Source: Bacteroidota bacterium (lineage in GTDB: Bacteria > Bacteroidota > Ignavibacteria > Ignavibacteriales > Ignavibacteriaceae). From it: a DNA stretch of 32,193 bases. This document shows, piece after piece, positions 14,147 to 24,881 of the stretch. The notes under the pieces were generated by a model, which was not told the origin of the DNA, did not search any database, and saw only the letters and a list, made by a program, of their open reading frames with translations. Numbering within the stretch: position 1 is the first letter of the stretch; each line of letters opens with the position of its first letter. The stretch covers positions 1-32,193 of the forward strand of contig JAJYDC010000031.1 of NCBI GenBank assembly GCA_021777835.1, read 5' to 3'. The translations under genes and the position numbers were made by a program.

Positions 14147-14446
14147 TTAGACAAACCGAACCCATTTAATTCTTTCCTCTTTAAAATGATCATTTATTTT
14201 TTTTATGATCAACATATCCATAAATTTCAATTCGCTTTTCCACGCAGAACTTTCTGTAGAAAGGAAAAGAGTTTTTTTTTCTACCTTTATTGCCAATACT
14301 ACCTTTTTAAAATTGGGAAAGATTTCATAAAACGAATTAATGACCTCCGATTGTTTTAGAGAATTTCTCAGGCCGGATAAGCCTGGGCTTTCGTTTACGA
14401 TTTCAGCCAAACTATGAAAATCCTTATGCATAAACAACCTTGCCAT
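14147..14446 (-). CDS. DUF721 (DciA-like) protein
   Basis: A 99-residue protein between recF and gyrB, the classical place for DUF721 genes. The C-terminal half, FKKVVLAIKVEKKTLFLSTESSAWKSELKF, matches the family pattern in which a strand is followed by S-x-W-x-x-EL. DciA proteins help load the replicative helicase DnaB in bacteria that lack DnaC. That function is known for longer members; this short form may keep only the core KH-like fold. The first ATG (14446) overlaps the recF end by 23 bases. A second ATG at 14431 (Met6) also has an AAGG upstream and is a possible start. The overlap indicates translation coupled to recF. Confidence 0.78.
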   Translation of the reverse strand: MARLFMHKDFHSLAEIVNESPGLSGLRNSLKQSEVINSFYEIFPNFKKVVLAIKVEKKTLFLSTESSAWKSELKFMDMLIIKKINDHFKEERIKWVRFV

Positions 14447-16754: not shown

Positions 16755-17153
16755 TTAAGGCCCGGTTAGACTTGATGAACCCTGATTGTCGCTATTTGAA
16801 ATTGTTATCGAAAGAACATATGCACCTGATTGCAACGTACTGGAATATACAAAAAGTATTTTTGTGCCTGCTTTAATCACCAACGTACCAGATGTGTTTC
16901 CAACTGTGCTTGAACTTGAAGCTCCCGCAGGGACAGTGTATGTTGTTGAATAATCATAGGTTCCGTTTGGTATTTCTGTAATTGAGGATGTTTGGCCCGC
17001 AGGAACAGTAATTAATCCGCCTCTAAAATTTATATAAACATCACCAGATGCTAAATTTTTAAAAGTTATACTGTTGTTTATATTACTAGAGCACCCCGAA
17101 AAGAAAGTTAATATAAATAATATAACACCAACAAAAACTAAAGACCGATTCAT
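16755..17153 (-). CDS. small Ser/Thr-rich lipoprotein of unknown function
   Basis: A 132-residue protein with a lipoprotein signal: a charged start MNR, a hydrophobic core, and the lipobox FSGC with Cys21 as the lipidation site followed by SSN. The absence of Asp at +2 favours the outer membrane under E. coli rules, which may not hold here. The mature part is beta-strand-like and rich in Ser, Thr and Gly, with two related TVPAG phrases (near residues 53 and 73) and a KAGTKILFVYSS strand. I recognise no family. It stands between dnaA and dnaN, two genes normally adjacent, and has its own terminator, so it is probably expressed alone. It may be a lineage-specific insertion into the origin region. 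Confidence 0.75.
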   Translation of the reverse strand: MNRSLVFVGVILFILTFFSGCSSNINNSITFKNLASGDVYINFRGGLITVPAGQTSSITEIPNGTYDYSTTYTVPAGASSSSTVGNTSGTLVIKAGTKILFVYSSTLQSGAYVLSITISNSDNQGSSSLTGP

Positions 17154-17297
17154 TTTTATCTCTAAAAAATTTTAAAGTGTTTTACTGATTAAAAATTAGT
17201 TTAATTAGTTTTAATAATCAACCAGAATAAATATTTATCTCCACAACATTATTAATAATTAGATATAGTTTTTTAAATCTAAATATATTAATAATAC

Positions 17298-17310
17298 TGT
17301 TAATATGTTG
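17298..17310 (-). repeat. origin element copy 1, CAACATATTAACA
   Basis: The minus-strand 13-mer CAACATATTAACA is identical to the copy beside the perfect DnaA box at 19118-19130. It is preceded by ATAT, so that ATATCAACA, a two-mismatch DnaA box, overlaps it. Confidence 0.6.
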
Positions 17311-17364
17311 ATATCATTAAAATACTATTAAACAGAATCAAAAAGAGCATTTTTCTTAAAACTA

Positions 17365-17378
17365 CTTTGTTAACAAAG
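17365..17378. repeat. 14-bp perfect palindrome CTTTGTTAACAAAG
   Basis: CTTTGTTAACAAAG equals its own reverse complement and lies between dnaA and the lipoprotein gene. It could be an operator for either transcript or an origin-binding site; there is no direct evidence. Confidence 0.45.
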
Positions 17379-17452
17379 GAACCATATAACACACATAATT
17401 GTTGTTTTGTTTATAACACCGAACTTATTAACAATCAAAAAACAGTTTTTAA

Positions 17453-17465
17453 CAACATATAAACA
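17453..17465 (+). repeat. origin element copy 2, CAACATATAAACA
   Basis: CAACATATAAACA differs by one base from the 19118-19130 copy. It lies 16 bases beyond the dnaA stop codon and is preceded by TTTTTAA. Confidence 0.55.
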
Positions 17466-17480
17466 AACCAACACTAACAA

Positions 17481-18878
17481 CTAATAATTACTAATTTCTA
17501 TTGATGTTTTGAGAGTATTTAGAATATCTTTTATTGATATATCGCTTTGTTTTAATATTTCAATAGAATTGCAAGCGTGAATGACCGTAGAGTGATCTCT
17601 TCCTCCAAAATGTAATCCTATTGTTTTCAAAGATGACTTTGTCAATTCTTTTGATAAATACATTGCTATTTGACGCGCAAGCACAATTTCTTTTTTCCTA
17701 GTTTTATCACGCAGTTTATTTTCATCTAATCCAAAATATTCACACACAGACTTTGTTATATACTCAATAGAAACATTAACCTTTCTATCCGTTGCAATTT
17801 CTCTTACTGTTTTTTTCGTCAGTTCTAAATTAATTTCTTTTGAATTAAGAGAAGCACTTGCCAGGAGTTTAATTAGACATCCCTCTAACTCTCGAATATT
17901 AGAAGTAATATTGTTCGCAATATAGTCTACAATTTCTCCAGTGATATTCATCCCGTAATCTTCAGCTTTTCTTTTTAAAATAGCTATTCTTGTTTCTAAA
18001 TCAGGTGGTTGAATATCGGCAGTTAGACCCCACTGAAACCGAGATATTAATCGGTTATCTAGTCCCTTAAGATCTTTTGGTGGTTTATCGCTTGATAGAA
18101 TAATTTGTTTTCTTGATTGGTGAAGTGTATTAAAAATATGAAAGAATAGGTCTTGAGTTTTTTCTTTTCCGATCAAAAACTGAATATCGTCAATAATAAC
18201 AACATCCATTTTCTTATAAAAACTTGAAAATTCATTCACTTTGTTAGATTGGATAGCTTCAACAAACTCGACAGTAAATATATCTGTTGATAAGTATATT
18301 ATTCTTTTATTTGGGAAATTACTTTGAGCTTTGTTACCAATAGCTTGAATTAGGTGTGTTTTTCCTAAACCAACACCTCCGTAAACAAAAAGAGGATTAA
18401 ATGAGGTTCCGCCAGGATTTTCACTTATTGCGCTTGCTGCAGCTCGGGCGAGCTGGTTTCCCTCTCCATTAATGAAATTATCAAAAGTGTATCTTGAATT
18501 TAAAGAAGACTCGAAATCTTTTTTTGTAACAACGGGTGTTTTTCTTTCGATGCTATTTGTTGTTAGTTCGTCTGTTTTAAATTCTAACAACTCGTTATCT
18601 TCAGAAATTACATAAGCTAGTCGGGCATCTGGCCCAATAACCTCGTGAATTGTGTTGTTAATTAATGTATTATAATGTTCATCAATCCATTCCCAAAAAA
18701 ACTGACTAGGGAGCTGTATTTTTAATGTTTTGTTTTTTATTTCTAGTGGCTTTATAGGAAGAAACCACGTGTTGTAGGTCATCTGAGAGACCCCACCCTT
18801 GATTGATTTTAAACACTCAGACCAAGCTGTTATTGGGGATTGAATTATGTTGTTGGCTTCAATAGTAGAATCGATCAT
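17481..18878 (-). CDS. dnaA: chromosomal replication initiator DnaA
   Basis: I chose the ATG at 18878, giving 465 residues and the normal start MIDSTIEANNIIQSPITAWS with domain I. The frame stays open to 19118, but the added 80 residues are hydrophobic, unlike DnaA, and overlap the origin repeats. Domain I is about 10-90 (W-S-E-C...TYNTWFLPI). The AAA+ domain has Walker A GGVGLGKT (167-174) and Walker B VIIDD (227-231). Domain IV has the DnaA signature GGRDHSTVIHAC (425-436), which contacts the box. DnaA-ATP opens the origin and recruits the helicase. No good Shine-Dalgarno precedes the ATG, which is common in Bacteroidota. Repeats upstream of the gene suggest autoregulation. Confidence 0.96.
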   Translation of the reverse strand: MIDSTIEANNIIQSPITAWSECLKSIKGGVSQMTYNTWFLPIKPLEIKNKTLKIQLPSQFFWEWIDEHYNTLINNTIHEVIGPDARLAYVISEDNELLEFKTDELTTNSIERKTPVVTKKDFESSLNSRYTFDNFINGEGNQLARAAASAISENPGGTSFNPLFVYGGVGLGKTHLIQAIGNKAQSNFPNKRIIYLSTDIFTVEFVEAIQSNKVNEFSSFYKKMDVVIIDDIQFLIGKEKTQDLFFHIFNTLHQSRKQIILSSDKPPKDLKGLDNRLISRFQWGLTADIQPPDLETRIAILKRKAEDYGMNITGEIVDYIANNITSNIRELEGCLIKLLASASLNSKEINLELTKKTVREIATDRKVNVSIEYITKSVCEYFGLDENKLRDKTRKKEIVLARQIAMYLSKELTKSSLKTIGLHFGGRDHSTVIHACNSIEILKQSDISIKDILNTLKTSIEISNY

Positions 18879-18889
18879 TTTTGGTTTAT

Positions 18890-18902
18890 CAACATATAAA
18901 TT
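18890..18902 (+). repeat. origin element, partial copy (CAACATATAAATT)
   Basis: Matches the CAACATATnAACA element except in its last two bases. It overlaps the DnaA-box-like TTATCAACA (18886-18894) in the presumed dnaA leader, where DnaA binding would block its own expression. Confidence 0.4.
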
Positions 18903-18965
18903 ATTAAAAAAAATGTAAAAACAAACAATTTCAAATATAAAAACAAAACCAATGGAACTTACGAA

Positions 18966-18978
18966 CAACATATCAACA
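18966..18978 (+). repeat. origin element copy 3, CAACATATCAACA
   Basis: One base different from copies at 17298 and 19118. It is followed directly by TTATTG and lies about 90 bases upstream of the dnaA ATG, next to a possible dnaA -7 element. Confidence 0.55.
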
Positions 18979-19110
18979 TTATTGTGGCGACGATAACCAC
19001 CCAGCAAATAAGAACTTATGGTGATTTTCTTAAGATACAAACACAAAAAACAAAAGGTGTGCTCTGGGTGATTGGGGTAATTGAATGTGAAACGTTTCCA
19101 CATCCGTAAC

Positions 19111-19119
19111 TTATCCACA
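19111..19119 (+). promoter_or_regulatory. perfect DnaA box TTATCCACA
   Basis: Exact match to the universal high-affinity DnaA box, the only exact one I found around dnaA. It lies 233 bases upstream of the dnaA ATG and overlaps the CAACATATTAACA element by two bases. Confidence 0.85.
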
Positions 19120-19130
19120 ACATATTAACA
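19118..19130 (+). repeat. origin element copy 4, CAACATATTAACA
   Basis: Identical to the minus-strand copy at 17298-17310 on the other side of dnaA, about 1.8 kb away. It directly follows the perfect DnaA box. Confidence 0.6.
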
Positions 19131-19402
19131 AAAATATCTAAGCCCAATTGCATGAAAAAATATAAACAAAACCAATTTAGAGCAAATTAATTTTTGCATA
19201 GTAGATGATTAATAATAATTTTCAAATTAAAAAATTATTTTTACGGTTTGTTGAATGCTTCGTGTATTAAATATAAAGCCAAATACTGTTTGTCTGTGTA
19301 AAAATGCAACTTTTATGTACTATGAAATAGCAAAAAAGCAAAATAACAAAGATTTTCAGGCTTTGGGTGCCAAAACAATGGAGTTATAGCTTAGAATTTA
19401 TC

Positions 19403-19433
19403 TTGTAATTTTATGCGTTATTACTTATTTTTG
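19403..19433 (+). promoter_or_regulatory. Bacteroidota-type promoter of the rpmH operon
   Basis: TTG (19403-19405), 20 bases, then TATTTTTG (19426-19433), an exact TAnnTTTG -7 element. The spacing equals that of the gyrA promoter. Transcription would begin near 19440, leaving a leader of about 20 bases with the AAGGAG ribosome site. Confidence 0.55.
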
Positions 19434-19460
19434 AAATCTTTTTCAAATAAGGAGTAAAAG

Positions 19461-22172: not shown

Positions 22173-24881
22173 ATGATAAACTTCAAAAAAATAATAATTG
22201 TATTATTCCCTTTATTAATTTCTACGTCTCTTGCGCAGGTAACCCATACAATTTCAGTTGAGTATAAAATTAAGAAGCTTCCGTTTGGACTTACAGAAAG
22301 GATTCCCAAACCGATGCCCGTAGTGGCTTTGGCTTTAAGCGGTGGAGGCGCTAGGGGATTAGCGCAAATTGGTGTTCTTAAAGCAATTCAAGAAGCAAGA
22401 ATTCCTGTTAGTTTAATAGTTGGGACAAGTATGGGAAGCATTGTTGGTGGATTATACTCTGCGGGTTATAGTATAAATCAACTTGATTCTATTGCAGTAA
22501 ATACAAATTGGGATAACCTTCTCGCTTCCGACAGAGAAACAAATAGACGTGAGCTATTTGTAGATCAGAAAATTACAGAAGACAAAGCGATATTTTCTTT
22601 AAGACTTAAGGGGCTGAATCTTGTTCTACCAACCTCTCTAAACAATGGTGAGAAGCTATCTAATTATTTAAATATTTTAACATTTCAAGCACCAATTCAT
22701 GCTGATTCTAGTTTTGATGAATTAAGAAATAAATTTAGAGCTGTGTGCACAAACCTAGTAAATGGTCACCCTGTTGTAATTGGGGATGGTTCGTTAAGTC
22801 AGGCCCTGCGGGCAAGTTCAAGCGTTTCATTTTTCGTTTCACCAGTCAGAGTAGACTCTCTTACGCTTGTAGATGGCGGACTTGTTGCAAATATTCCAGT
22901 AAAAATTGCAAAAAGTCTAGGCGGTCAATATGTGATTGCAGTTAACACAACAAGCGCGCTTCACACTCAAAAAGAGCTTTCGCTTCCATGGGAAATAGCA
23001 GATCAGGTAGTAAGTATTCCCATGAAGAAATTAAACGATTCCGAATTAAGCTTGGCAAATTCAGTTATTTCCCCAAAAATAGTTGGTAATAAAATTAATG
23101 ATTTTACACACATTAAGTCACTTATTTTAAGTGGTTATAAGGCAGCTCTTCCAGAAATGAATATAATAAAAAGTCAAATTGATTCATTATTTAGAAAAAA
23201 TTTCACTATAAAAAAATATTATTTAAAAAATATAATGCTAACTGGTAACGAATCAGAACTAGATAAGCCATTTATTGAGAAATATTCAATGAAGGATTCG
23301 GTATCAAGCTACGATATTTTAGATGATCTTTATTCTATTTATTCTACTGGATATTACAAGAAACTGAGCGCCGAGGTTACGAAATATCGAAACTATACTA
23401 CAATAAAATTTATCGATGAAAAAAATCCAATAATTAAGAGAATAAAGTTATTAGGTGTAAGTCTTATTAGCGATTCAATTGCCCAAAATTCATTAAATGG
23501 ACTTGTGGGGTTCCCTTATTCAGCAAAGAAGGTAGTTGCAAAATCCATTTCACTAATTAATTTGTATCGTAAGCAAGGCTATTCTCTTGCGGAAATAAAA
23601 AAAATTAGTTTTGATAAAAAAAATGGAATACTCAGTGTTACTGTAAACGAAGGAAAAATTTCATCAATTGAAATTTTGGGAAATAAATTTACTAACCGCA
23701 CAATAATTACTCGTGAAATTCCAATTAAAATTGGGGACTATTTAAATTCTAATAATATAAAACAGGGATTAACCAACCTTCGTAGCACAAATATTTTTGA
23801 TGATATTTATTTCGCAATAAAAAATATAGATGGGAGAGATGCTCTTATCGTAAACGTTCACGAAAAGGATTCCAGCCTTCTCAGGGTTGGGTTTCGTGTT
23901 GATAATGAGGATAAAGCACAACTTAGTCTTAACCTGGTTGACGAAAATTTATTTGGAACCGGAACAGAACTTGGATTACTTCTTTTGGGTAGTTCAAGAA
24001 ATAGATCATTTGTAATTGAGCACAAATCAAACAGAATTTTTGATACTTACCTTACTTATAAACTTAATGCATATTATAAATTTGAAGATATTTACAACTA
24101 CGTTAATGACCCATCTTCTTCAACGTCAAGATTTTATATGTCTTCAAATGGAGAATACAGGCAAATATATTATGGTGGTTCTGTATCTGTAGGGACCCAG
24201 GTTGAAAGATTTGGAAATTTAATATTTGAGGGTAAATATCAAGTTGATCAAGTAAAAAACATTAACAACTCCCCCGTTAACCCTCTAAGAGCCACCATTG
24301 TCAGTTTTAAAGCTAGCTCAACGGTAGATACTCAAAACAAATATCCATATCCAACAAAGGGGATTTATTTTAACGGCAATTATGAAACAGCACAAAATGT
24401 ATTAGGCGGTCAAGTCGGTTATACAAATATTAATTTTAGCTATAAAAACTATTTTACTGTTGGAAGTGTTAGTACATTTTCGCCAAGGTTGACGATGGGA
24501 TTTGCAGATAAAACATTACCGTTAAGTGAAGAATATTCACTTGGTGGTCAAAGTTCATTCTTTGGTATGAATGATAACCAATTTAGAGGACGTCAAATAT
24601 TTTTAGCTTCTTTAGAGTATCGTTACAAACTTCCTTTTCAAATATTTTTTGATACTTATTTTAAATTTCGATACGATTTAGGATCGACATGGGACGAACA
24701 AGAAGAAATTAGGTTTAAGGATTTAAGGCATGGAATTGGCGCAACTCTTTCTTTTGATACGCCAATTGGTCCTGCAGACTTTTCAGTTGGCAGAAGTTTT
24801 CTTTTTGTAAAGAATCTTCCGGGTAATCCTCTTAGCTGGGGTAATTATTTTTTCTATTTTTCAATTGGATATTATTACTAA
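22173..24881 (+). CDS. patatin-like phospholipase with POTRA and outer-membrane barrel (type Vd/PlpD-like)
   Basis: 902 residues. The signal peptide (1-21) ends STSLAQ. The patatin domain (about 50-335) has the oxyanion loop SGGGARG (56-62), the nucleophile elbow GTSMG (Ser86) and the DGG motif with catalytic Asp234, so the Ser-Asp dyad is intact. Residues about 340-570 contain POTRA-like segments, and 575-902 form a BamA/Omp85-type barrel ending FFYFSIGYYY, with aromatic final residues as expected for BAM-dependent assembly. Such proteins export or anchor a lipase at the outer membrane. Bacteroidota-group members often have this long form. The ATG has no Shine-Dalgarno and follows a terminator directly, so its expression is puzzling. 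No other function fits as well. Confidence 0.92.
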   Translation: MINFKKIIIVLFPLLISTSLAQVTHTISVEYKIKKLPFGLTERIPKPMPVVALALSGGGARGLAQIGVLKAIQEARIPVSLIVGTSMGSIVGGLYSAGYSINQLDSIAVNTNWDNLLASDRETNRRELFVDQKITEDKAIFSLRLKGLNLVLPTSLNNGEKLSNYLNILTFQAPIHADSSFDELRNKFRAVCTNLVNGHPVVIGDGSLSQALRASSSVSFFVSPVRVDSLTLVDGGLVANIPVKIAKSLGGQYVIAVNTTSALHTQKELSLPWEIADQVVSIPMKKLNDSELSLANSVISPKIVGNKINDFTHIKSLILSGYKAALPEMNIIKSQIDSLFRKNFTIKKYYLKNIMLTGNESELDKPFIEKYSMKDSVSSYDILDDLYSIYSTGYYKKLSAEVTKYRNYTTIKFIDEKNPIIKRIKLLGVSLISDSIAQNSLNGLVGFPYSAKKVVAKSISLINLYRKQGYSLAEIKKISFDKKNGILSVTVNEGKISSIEILGNKFTNRTIITREIPIKIGDYLNSNNIKQGLTNLRSTNIFDDIYFAIKNIDGRDALIVNVHEKDSSLLRVGFRVDNEDKAQLSLNLVDENLFGTGTELGLLLLGSSRNRSFVIEHKSNRIFDTYLTYKLNAYYKFEDIYNYVNDPSSSTSRFYMSSNGEYRQIYYGGSVSVGTQVERFGNLIFEGKYQVDQVKNINNSPVNPLRATIVSFKASSTVDTQNKYPYPTKGIYFNGNYETAQNVLGGQVGYTNINFSYKNYFTVGSVSTFSPRLTMGFADKTLPLSEEYSLGGQSSFFGMNDNQFRGRQIFLASLEYRYKLPFQIFFDTYFKFRYDLGSTWDEQEEIRFKDLRHGIGATLSFDTPIGPADFSVGRSFLFVKNLPGNPLSWGNYFFYFSIGYYY

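Follow-up and report, generated by a model that had tools for sequence, protein, structure and literature searches.

The dnaA locus

The window (the whole stretch of DNA that we analysed, 32,193 nucleotides) carries the gene row dnaA, an ORF, dnaN, recF, dciA and gyrB. Two of these genes matter most for what follows:

17481-18878, minus strand: dnaA, 465 aa, ATG at 18878 (Pfam Bac_DnaA, Bac_DnaA_C and DnaA_N; NCBIfam TIGR00362, equivalog)
14147-14446, minus strand: dciA, a candidate helicase loader gene in the same row (Pfam DciA at 38.5 bits, cut-off 24)

A longer, 545-aa GTG reading of dnaA is unneeded, because the ATG form aligns with Bacillus subtilis DnaA from residue 16. Between dnaA and dnaN stands a 132-aa ORF (16755-17153, minus strand) without a Pfam or NCBIfam match, whose start resembles a lipoprotein signal by eye. 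An insert of this size may be common in relatives, since dnaN starts some 800-1000 bp after dnaA in most of those that are linked to rpmH. Farther along the window, a 902-aa protein (22173-24881, plus strand) resembles patatin-like phospholipases over one part of its length and BamA/Omp85 over the other, with scores under the NCBIfam cut-offs.

Is this the place where the chromosome begins to replicate? In the window, cumulative GC skew is lowest at 18002, on a floor that stays flat between about 18.0 and 19.25 kb; this coincides with the interval that a preliminary description of this DNA had put forward as the origin. A closed relative, CP053447.1, read in 20 samples of 20 kb, reaches its lowest cumulative skew in the sample at 3.18 Mb, and the curve climbs from the one at 3.37 Mb onwards, with dnaA at 3.25 Mb; a second, CP070637.1, showed no clear skew turn in 20 samples and therefore gives no support for an origin at dnaA. 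On GC skew, then, the window and one of the two closed relatives speak for an origin at dnaA.

A repeated 13-mer and the boxes that compose it

The preliminary description had centred on a 13-bp element, CAACATATNAACA, said to recur in non-coding DNA on both sides of dnaA. A motif scan bears this out, with exact copies at 17298-17310 (minus strand) and at 17453-17465, 18966-18978 and 19118-19130 (all plus strand). They sit in the spacer between rpmH and dnaA and in that between dnaA and the next ORF, and they are non-coding provided that dnaA begins with the ATG at 18878. The partial fifth copy, at 18890-18902, is present with 2 mismatches, and the overlap of one copy with a perfect DnaA box is there as well, the 19118 copy sharing two bases with TTATCCACA at 19111-19119. 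In the whole genome (3.64 Mb; 3,639,205 bp on 95 contigs, in an assembly that is 98.37% complete) there are no exact copies beyond these four, against two matches for the reversed control in the same scan; since all four lie there, the exact 13-mer belongs to the dnaA flanks, to which the clustering expected of it is indeed confined. With up to one mismatch there are 29 matches (the four exact ones included) and 26 for the reversed control, so the looser copies elsewhere are at chance level. The claimed rarity of the plain DnaA box did not hold up: TTATCCACA occurs 35 times in the genome and its reversed control 35 times, with one copy only at the origin. TTATNCACA with one mismatch, counted over the whole window, gave no signal (51 against 43.4 expected).

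What, then, is the 13-mer? Read by its letters, it is CA, AC and ATATNAACA: the last bases of one predicted DnaA box, a spacer of 2 bp and a weaker box that follows it. In other words, it is a seam rather than a word. Its copies differ in kind, with three of them in pairs of boxes spaced at 11 bp and the fourth, at 17298, in a pair with an 8-bp offset that belongs to the putative unwinding site. The 11-bp pairs and the partial copy are as follows:

19111-19130, plus strand: upstream DnaA box pair TTATCCACA-AC-ATATTAACA, the genome's only exact match to the paired-box pattern; it includes the 13-mer at 19118-19130, and relatives keep its place near -250
18959-18978, plus strand: upstream DnaA box pair TTACGAACA-AC-ATATCAACA, which departs from the paired-box pattern at one position and includes the 13-mer at 18966-18978; relatives keep its place near -100
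18886-18902, plus strand: box TTATCAACA beside the dnaA start, with the partial 13-mer 18890-18902 (motif scan)
17446-17465, plus strand: downstream DnaA box pair TTTTTAACA-AC-ATATAAACA, which departs from the paired-box pattern at one position and includes the 13-mer at 17453-17465; some relatives have same-strand copies at dn3-110

Escherichia coli DnaA favours boxes that are 2 or 3 bp apart (PMC11317965). The three window pairs (one exact and two with one mismatch) are co-oriented at such a distance, and for that reason they would represent a known kind of site. Like the E. coli double boxes, they are 9-mers on the same strand, 2 bp from each other, of which one is strong and the other weak; unlike those, as far as the portion of that source available to us describes them, the pairs here hold fixed places around dnaA and have ATATNAACA as the second box (PMC11317965).

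A DnaA scan of genome contigs gave 161 relatives, the best 80 of which were kept and, with the window, make 81 dnaA loci; these are related to each other and come mostly from metagenome assemblies, and by “the order” we mean the relatives labelled Ignavibacteriales, Ignavibacteriaceae, Melioribacteraceae, Stygiobacter or just Bacteroidetes. Across the 81 loci, 19 of the 22 exact and 76 of the 82 one-mismatch copies of the 13-mer (95 of 104 together) fall between -650 and +400 of dnaA, a zone that makes up 82 kb of the 807 kb scanned. Forms such as TTATCCACA-AC-ATATTCACA recur near -250 and forms such as TTATCAACA-AC-TTATCAACA near -100; TTATYAACATATTAACA, on the opposite strand, lies mostly 144-306 bp past the dnaA stop, and an element similar to the 18886-18902 box stands at -24 in two loci (L012 and L013). 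The 80 upstream regions hold 317 boxes (22 in shuffles), 301 of them on one strand, with 56 same-strand pairs at 11 bp and about none in shuffles. Downstream there are 225 boxes (again 22 in shuffles) and 20 same-strand pairs at 8 bp; no box-pair distance exceeded 0.2 in the shuffles. Counts of k-mers made without the 13-mer agree: TTATCCACA is found upstream in 40 of 44 rpmH-linked loci, where 0.3 would be expected, and 28 of 43 have TTATTAACA downstream, where the expectation is 1.6.

By comparison, the exact 13-mer is found in the flanks (as fetched) of just 2 of the 10 same-genus dnaA loci with a readable dnaA stop, and it occurs 93 times in 97 related genomes against 48 for the control, in summed counts. 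Conservation in relatives, then, which the preliminary description had made a test of its claim, is seen for the element as a class and fails for the exact word; to judge from these alignments of letters, the conserved unit is the box pair and its place. The 13-mer exceeds a box in length and is found nowhere but at the origin, as the site of some other origin protein might be. Its fixed letters match two DnaA boxes offset by 11 or 8 bp, and among relatives it shifts towards box letters on either side, both of which speak against such a protein; we think that reading highly unlikely, and nothing points to it. Because the letters resolve into two boxes, we have rejected the 13-mer as an independent motif. 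What stands of the earlier proposal that it is the main DnaA site is its tie to DnaA binding; what falls is its standing as a unit of its own.

One further element accompanies the upstream boxes:

19086-19102, minus strand: 17-bp near-palindrome TGTGGAAACGTTTCACA beside the upstream pair, with a single exact copy in the genome

Two other places in the genome match it with 2 mismatches, and a similar sequence is present in 24 of 44 rpmH-linked loci, 223-233 bp before dnaA in 20 of them. It resembles the site of a dimeric regulator, LacI-like; alternatively, it looks like a set of weak DnaA boxes that face each other.

A proposed unwinding site and its mirror image

The copy at 17298 leads to a second kind of structure, one that the earlier reading overlooked. 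In B. subtilis, a basal unwinding system (BUS) has been described in which a DnaA box is followed, after a short spacer, by repeated trinucleotides whose other strand has A in the middle, and a BUS has been predicted in 1755 of 2070 origins (PMC8287927). In Thermotoga maritima, the annotated trios were supportive only, and other repeats were essential (PMC10316083). The candidate parts of such a system in the window, in its left and right halves, are the following:

17298-17314, minus strand: left BUS box pair ATATCAACATATTAACA, 8-bp offset, holding the 13-mer at 17298-17310 (box-spacing and BUS scans)
17286-17294, minus strand: left trios TTA TTA ATA after a 3-nt spacer at 17295-17297 (TTA phase in relatives)
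17246-17297: AT-rich stretch of 52 bp between left and right boxes, the proposed DNA unwinding element, or DUE (spacing in relatives)
17249-17260, plus strand: right trios TTA TTA ATA ATT, separated from the right box by a 3-nt spacer and running inward (TAA phase in relatives and reading of the window)
17237-17245, plus strand: right inverted box ATCTCCACA, 2 mismatches (TTATCTCCACA from 17235) (window scan; inverted box in 26 of 36 loci)

The left half has the parts of a BUS. Its boxes, ATATCAACA and ATATTAACA, each have 1 mismatch to TTATN[CA]ACA; measured against TTATCCACA, the strict form that the published program uses, the mismatches are 2 and 3, respectively, and the pair passes the 2/4 rule for that reason, with one DnaA box within 2 mismatches. 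The trios start 3 nt from the proximal and 11 nt from the distal box, where a spacer of at most 16 bp is allowed, and TTA TTA ATA supplies the minimum of three NAN trios. A genome scan with the 26-base BUS pattern found a single match, at 17289-17314, and none other up to two mismatches. In a strict BUS scan of the 81 loci there were 48 matches in 42 loci, and 44 of the 48 are no more than 500 bp past the dnaA stop. Of these, 41 share the strand of dnaA; the other three are the inverted halves of L034, L039 and L076. One of the four remaining matches, that of L055, stands about 180 bp ahead of dnaN, a gene that in this locus does not adjoin dnaA.

For the geometry we used the left 17-mer as an anchor (up to 4 mismatches, enough flank), which was found in 53 of the 81 loci; the 28 without it have short contigs, a BUS elsewhere or none found. 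An AT content below 0.85 removed 11 of the 53 and left 42. Among these 11, L073, L074 and L081 had the anchor at the wrong place (the strict scan has a better BUS in each), and L036, L040, L067 and L069 were restored after reading, for a total of 46, thinned at 75% identity to 36. In these 36 non-redundant loci, TTA triplets that follow the left box pair and three free bases are in phase 114 times and out of phase 9 times. The middle of the AT-rich stretch is little conserved.

Across that stretch, many relatives carry a box that points the other way. From the left box to the TGT of an inverted box the distance is 52-55 bp in 36 of 39 loci, the window included; the 39 are those of the 46 with a TGT at 46-59, and distances outside 46-59 could not appear, because TGT was searched for only there. 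An inverted box with up to 1 mismatch lies at positions 42-85 in 31 of 42 loci, most often at 50-54 or 60-63, and same-direction boxes are found in 8 of 42, scattered, with shuffles of the inverted box averaging 12.1 (maximum 19 of 200 shuffles). After thinning, the inverted box is in 26 of 36 loci and the same-direction box in 1 of 36, with 5.7 in shuffles (maximum 13 of 500). Of the 39 right proximal boxes, 20 have 0-1 mismatch and 12 more have 2. In the 30 of 36 loci with a TGT at positions 46-59, right trios (TAA before TGT, with three free bases) are in phase 53 times against 15.6 in shuffles, with a maximum of 27 in 1000. This is the trio register that a mirrored second BUS would have, seen in relatives; the window itself reads TTA TTA ATA ATT. 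In a weaker test, which compares the two triplets on the right, 23 of 36 loci have more TAA than TTA and 9 have more TTA.

Of the 81 loci, 48 have boxes that face each other around an AT-rich gap and 27 have boxes that face outward; this arrangement is less exclusive on its own than when trios are demanded on either side (15 and 1). L034, L039, L064, L072, L076 and L077 are clear single examples of the mirrored module. In L183 (genome G073, at 1500-1600), 22 kb separate the BUS from dnaA. Its surroundings there hold other genes and, judged by eye, several sequences that resemble boxes; an inverted partner, an exact TTATCCACA, is retained, and the site is presumably an origin that no longer adjoins dnaA. 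A class-wide search for the BUS pattern matched 27 of 197 genomes, some of them also among the 80 relatives' loci. Where dnaA or dnaN lay in the 3 kb fetched, an inverted box (up to 1 mismatch, at 46-67) accompanied 8 of 13 matches inside the order and 1 of 7 outside it, and on these counts the mirror half looks like a trait of this order, though not of each member.

Could the right half be something other than an unwinding module? The simplest alternative is an ordinary one-sided BUS in which the left boxes and trios alone work, the right boxes have some other task and the TAA run is AT-rich filler. The right box of the window is indeed poor, an inverted box with up to 1 mismatch is absent from 10 of the 36 loci, and the class search finds none in 5 of 13 dnaA- or dnaN-linked matches inside the order and 6 of 7 outside. 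Filler would not, on the other hand, be expected to keep a trio register in such excess over every shuffle or a constant 52-55 bp from the left box, or L183 its inverted partner so far from dnaA. We regard this one-sided reading as quite plausible, at somewhat less than an even chance. The other alternative is that the arms, which are roughly inverted repeats, form a hairpin (a cruciform or the end of the dnaA transcript) kept for base pairing. Arms swapped between loci complement each other just as well (11.71 of 20) as arms of the same locus do (11.67), and no terminator-like site was found within 17100-17500; because the arms do not covary, we disfavour a hairpin or terminator and consider it improbable in the extreme.

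A model of the origin

With good confidence, we propose that this is the chromosome origin, with co-oriented box pairs upstream of dnaA, a BUS downstream that would open the 52-bp stretch and, in many relatives, a mirrored second half. The model starts from what can be read in the letters, namely the box pairs with their positions, the BUS on the left, the turn of the skew and, in relatives, the inverted box with its trios in register; DnaA binding, unwinding, joint action of both halves and helicase loading we infer. The two-part origin around dnaA that had been suggested is thus supported, by box clusters on both sides of the gene and by the skew turn in the window and CP053447.1. A further step, that origins of the order unwind from two sides (putative head-to-head BUS modules across a DUE of fixed length, with DnaA filaments and a helicase for each strand), is one on which we are evenly divided.

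The sequence of events might run as follows. Upstream, DnaA would bind the co-oriented boxes, including several strong/weak pairs with a 2-bp spacer (the seam of which is the 13-mer), and one DnaA would help the next. Downstream, DnaA on the boxes at 17298-17314 would extend along the TTA trios (3'-AAT-5' on the opposite strand) and open the AT-rich stretch. In many members of the order, a second DnaA filament, from the inverted box and the inward trios, might hold the other strand; we propose a filament on each strand because the left and right halves are both analogous to the published BUS. Each filament could then offer docking for a loader on its own strand, so that one helicase would be placed on each strand, perhaps via DciA, and the two, which move 5' to 3', would depart in opposite directions.

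How much of this is familiar? Bipartite origins with an unwinding site on the dnaA-dnaN side are a recognised type (review PMC4285127), described, for example, in Clostridioides difficile (PMC7561715). The window resembles the origins of B. subtilis, Helicobacter pylori and C. difficile in that box clusters flank dnaA and the unwinding site is on the dnaA-dnaN side; it differs in the extra 132-aa ORF between the two genes and in its mirrored form, the unwinding sites of those species being one-sided in the portions of their descriptions available to us. In a related lineage, the origin of Melioribacter roseus was likewise predicted in the dnaA-dnaN spacer, of 303 bp, in an account that, in the portion available to us, mentions neither trios nor facing halves (PMC3534657). 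Like the B. subtilis BUS, with its DnaA-boxes 6/7 and DnaA-trios, the left half has two co-oriented boxes and a short spacer between dnaA and dnaN, followed by trinucleotides with a central A on the other strand and an AT-rich stretch (PMC8287927, PMC10721633). Unlike it, to go by the same sources, the boxes here have an 8-bp offset, the trios are nearly all AAT (mostly GAT there) and DnaA has Val at the Asn187 position; in many relatives of the window there is, in addition, a mirror-image half at a distance of 52-55 bp. A bipartite oriC with a BUS is, therefore, of a known kind, and the mirror-image second half in many members of the order is new in the literature that we searched, where we found no description of facing BUS modules (the supplementary BUS table of PMC8287927 lay outside that search, and its program keeps one candidate per origin).

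The difference in DnaA deserves care. Asn187 of B. subtilis DnaA contacts the trio adenine, and AAT trios used throughout impaired the B. subtilis origin (PMC10721633). Val203 of the window's DnaA aligns, by our count, with that residue; the contact was shown for B. subtilis and may or may not define the family. Among 92 DnaA proteins, the position is V in 78, I in 8, T in 3, R in 2 and N in 1, and it is mostly V or I in 29 loci from a search of the phylum. The change from Asn187 to Val, together with trios that are nearly all AAT, is a warning against a simple transfer of the B. subtilis mechanism.

How two helicases come to be loaded on opposite strands was stated as not understood in two papers from 2023 (PMC10721633, PMC10201434), and for the second helicase of B. 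subtilis it has been proposed that DnaD acts on the strand opposite the trios (PMC10201434). Here, the same DnaA route, perhaps with DciA, is proposed for both strands. If this is true, the order would have a symmetric answer to dual helicase loading, unlike the DnaD proposal for B. subtilis. A mirror-doubled unwinding module would make the question of dual loading directly testable with short scaffolds and the DnaA of a cultured relative, and the signature of a BUS with an inverted partner may find origins that have left dnaA, as in L183.
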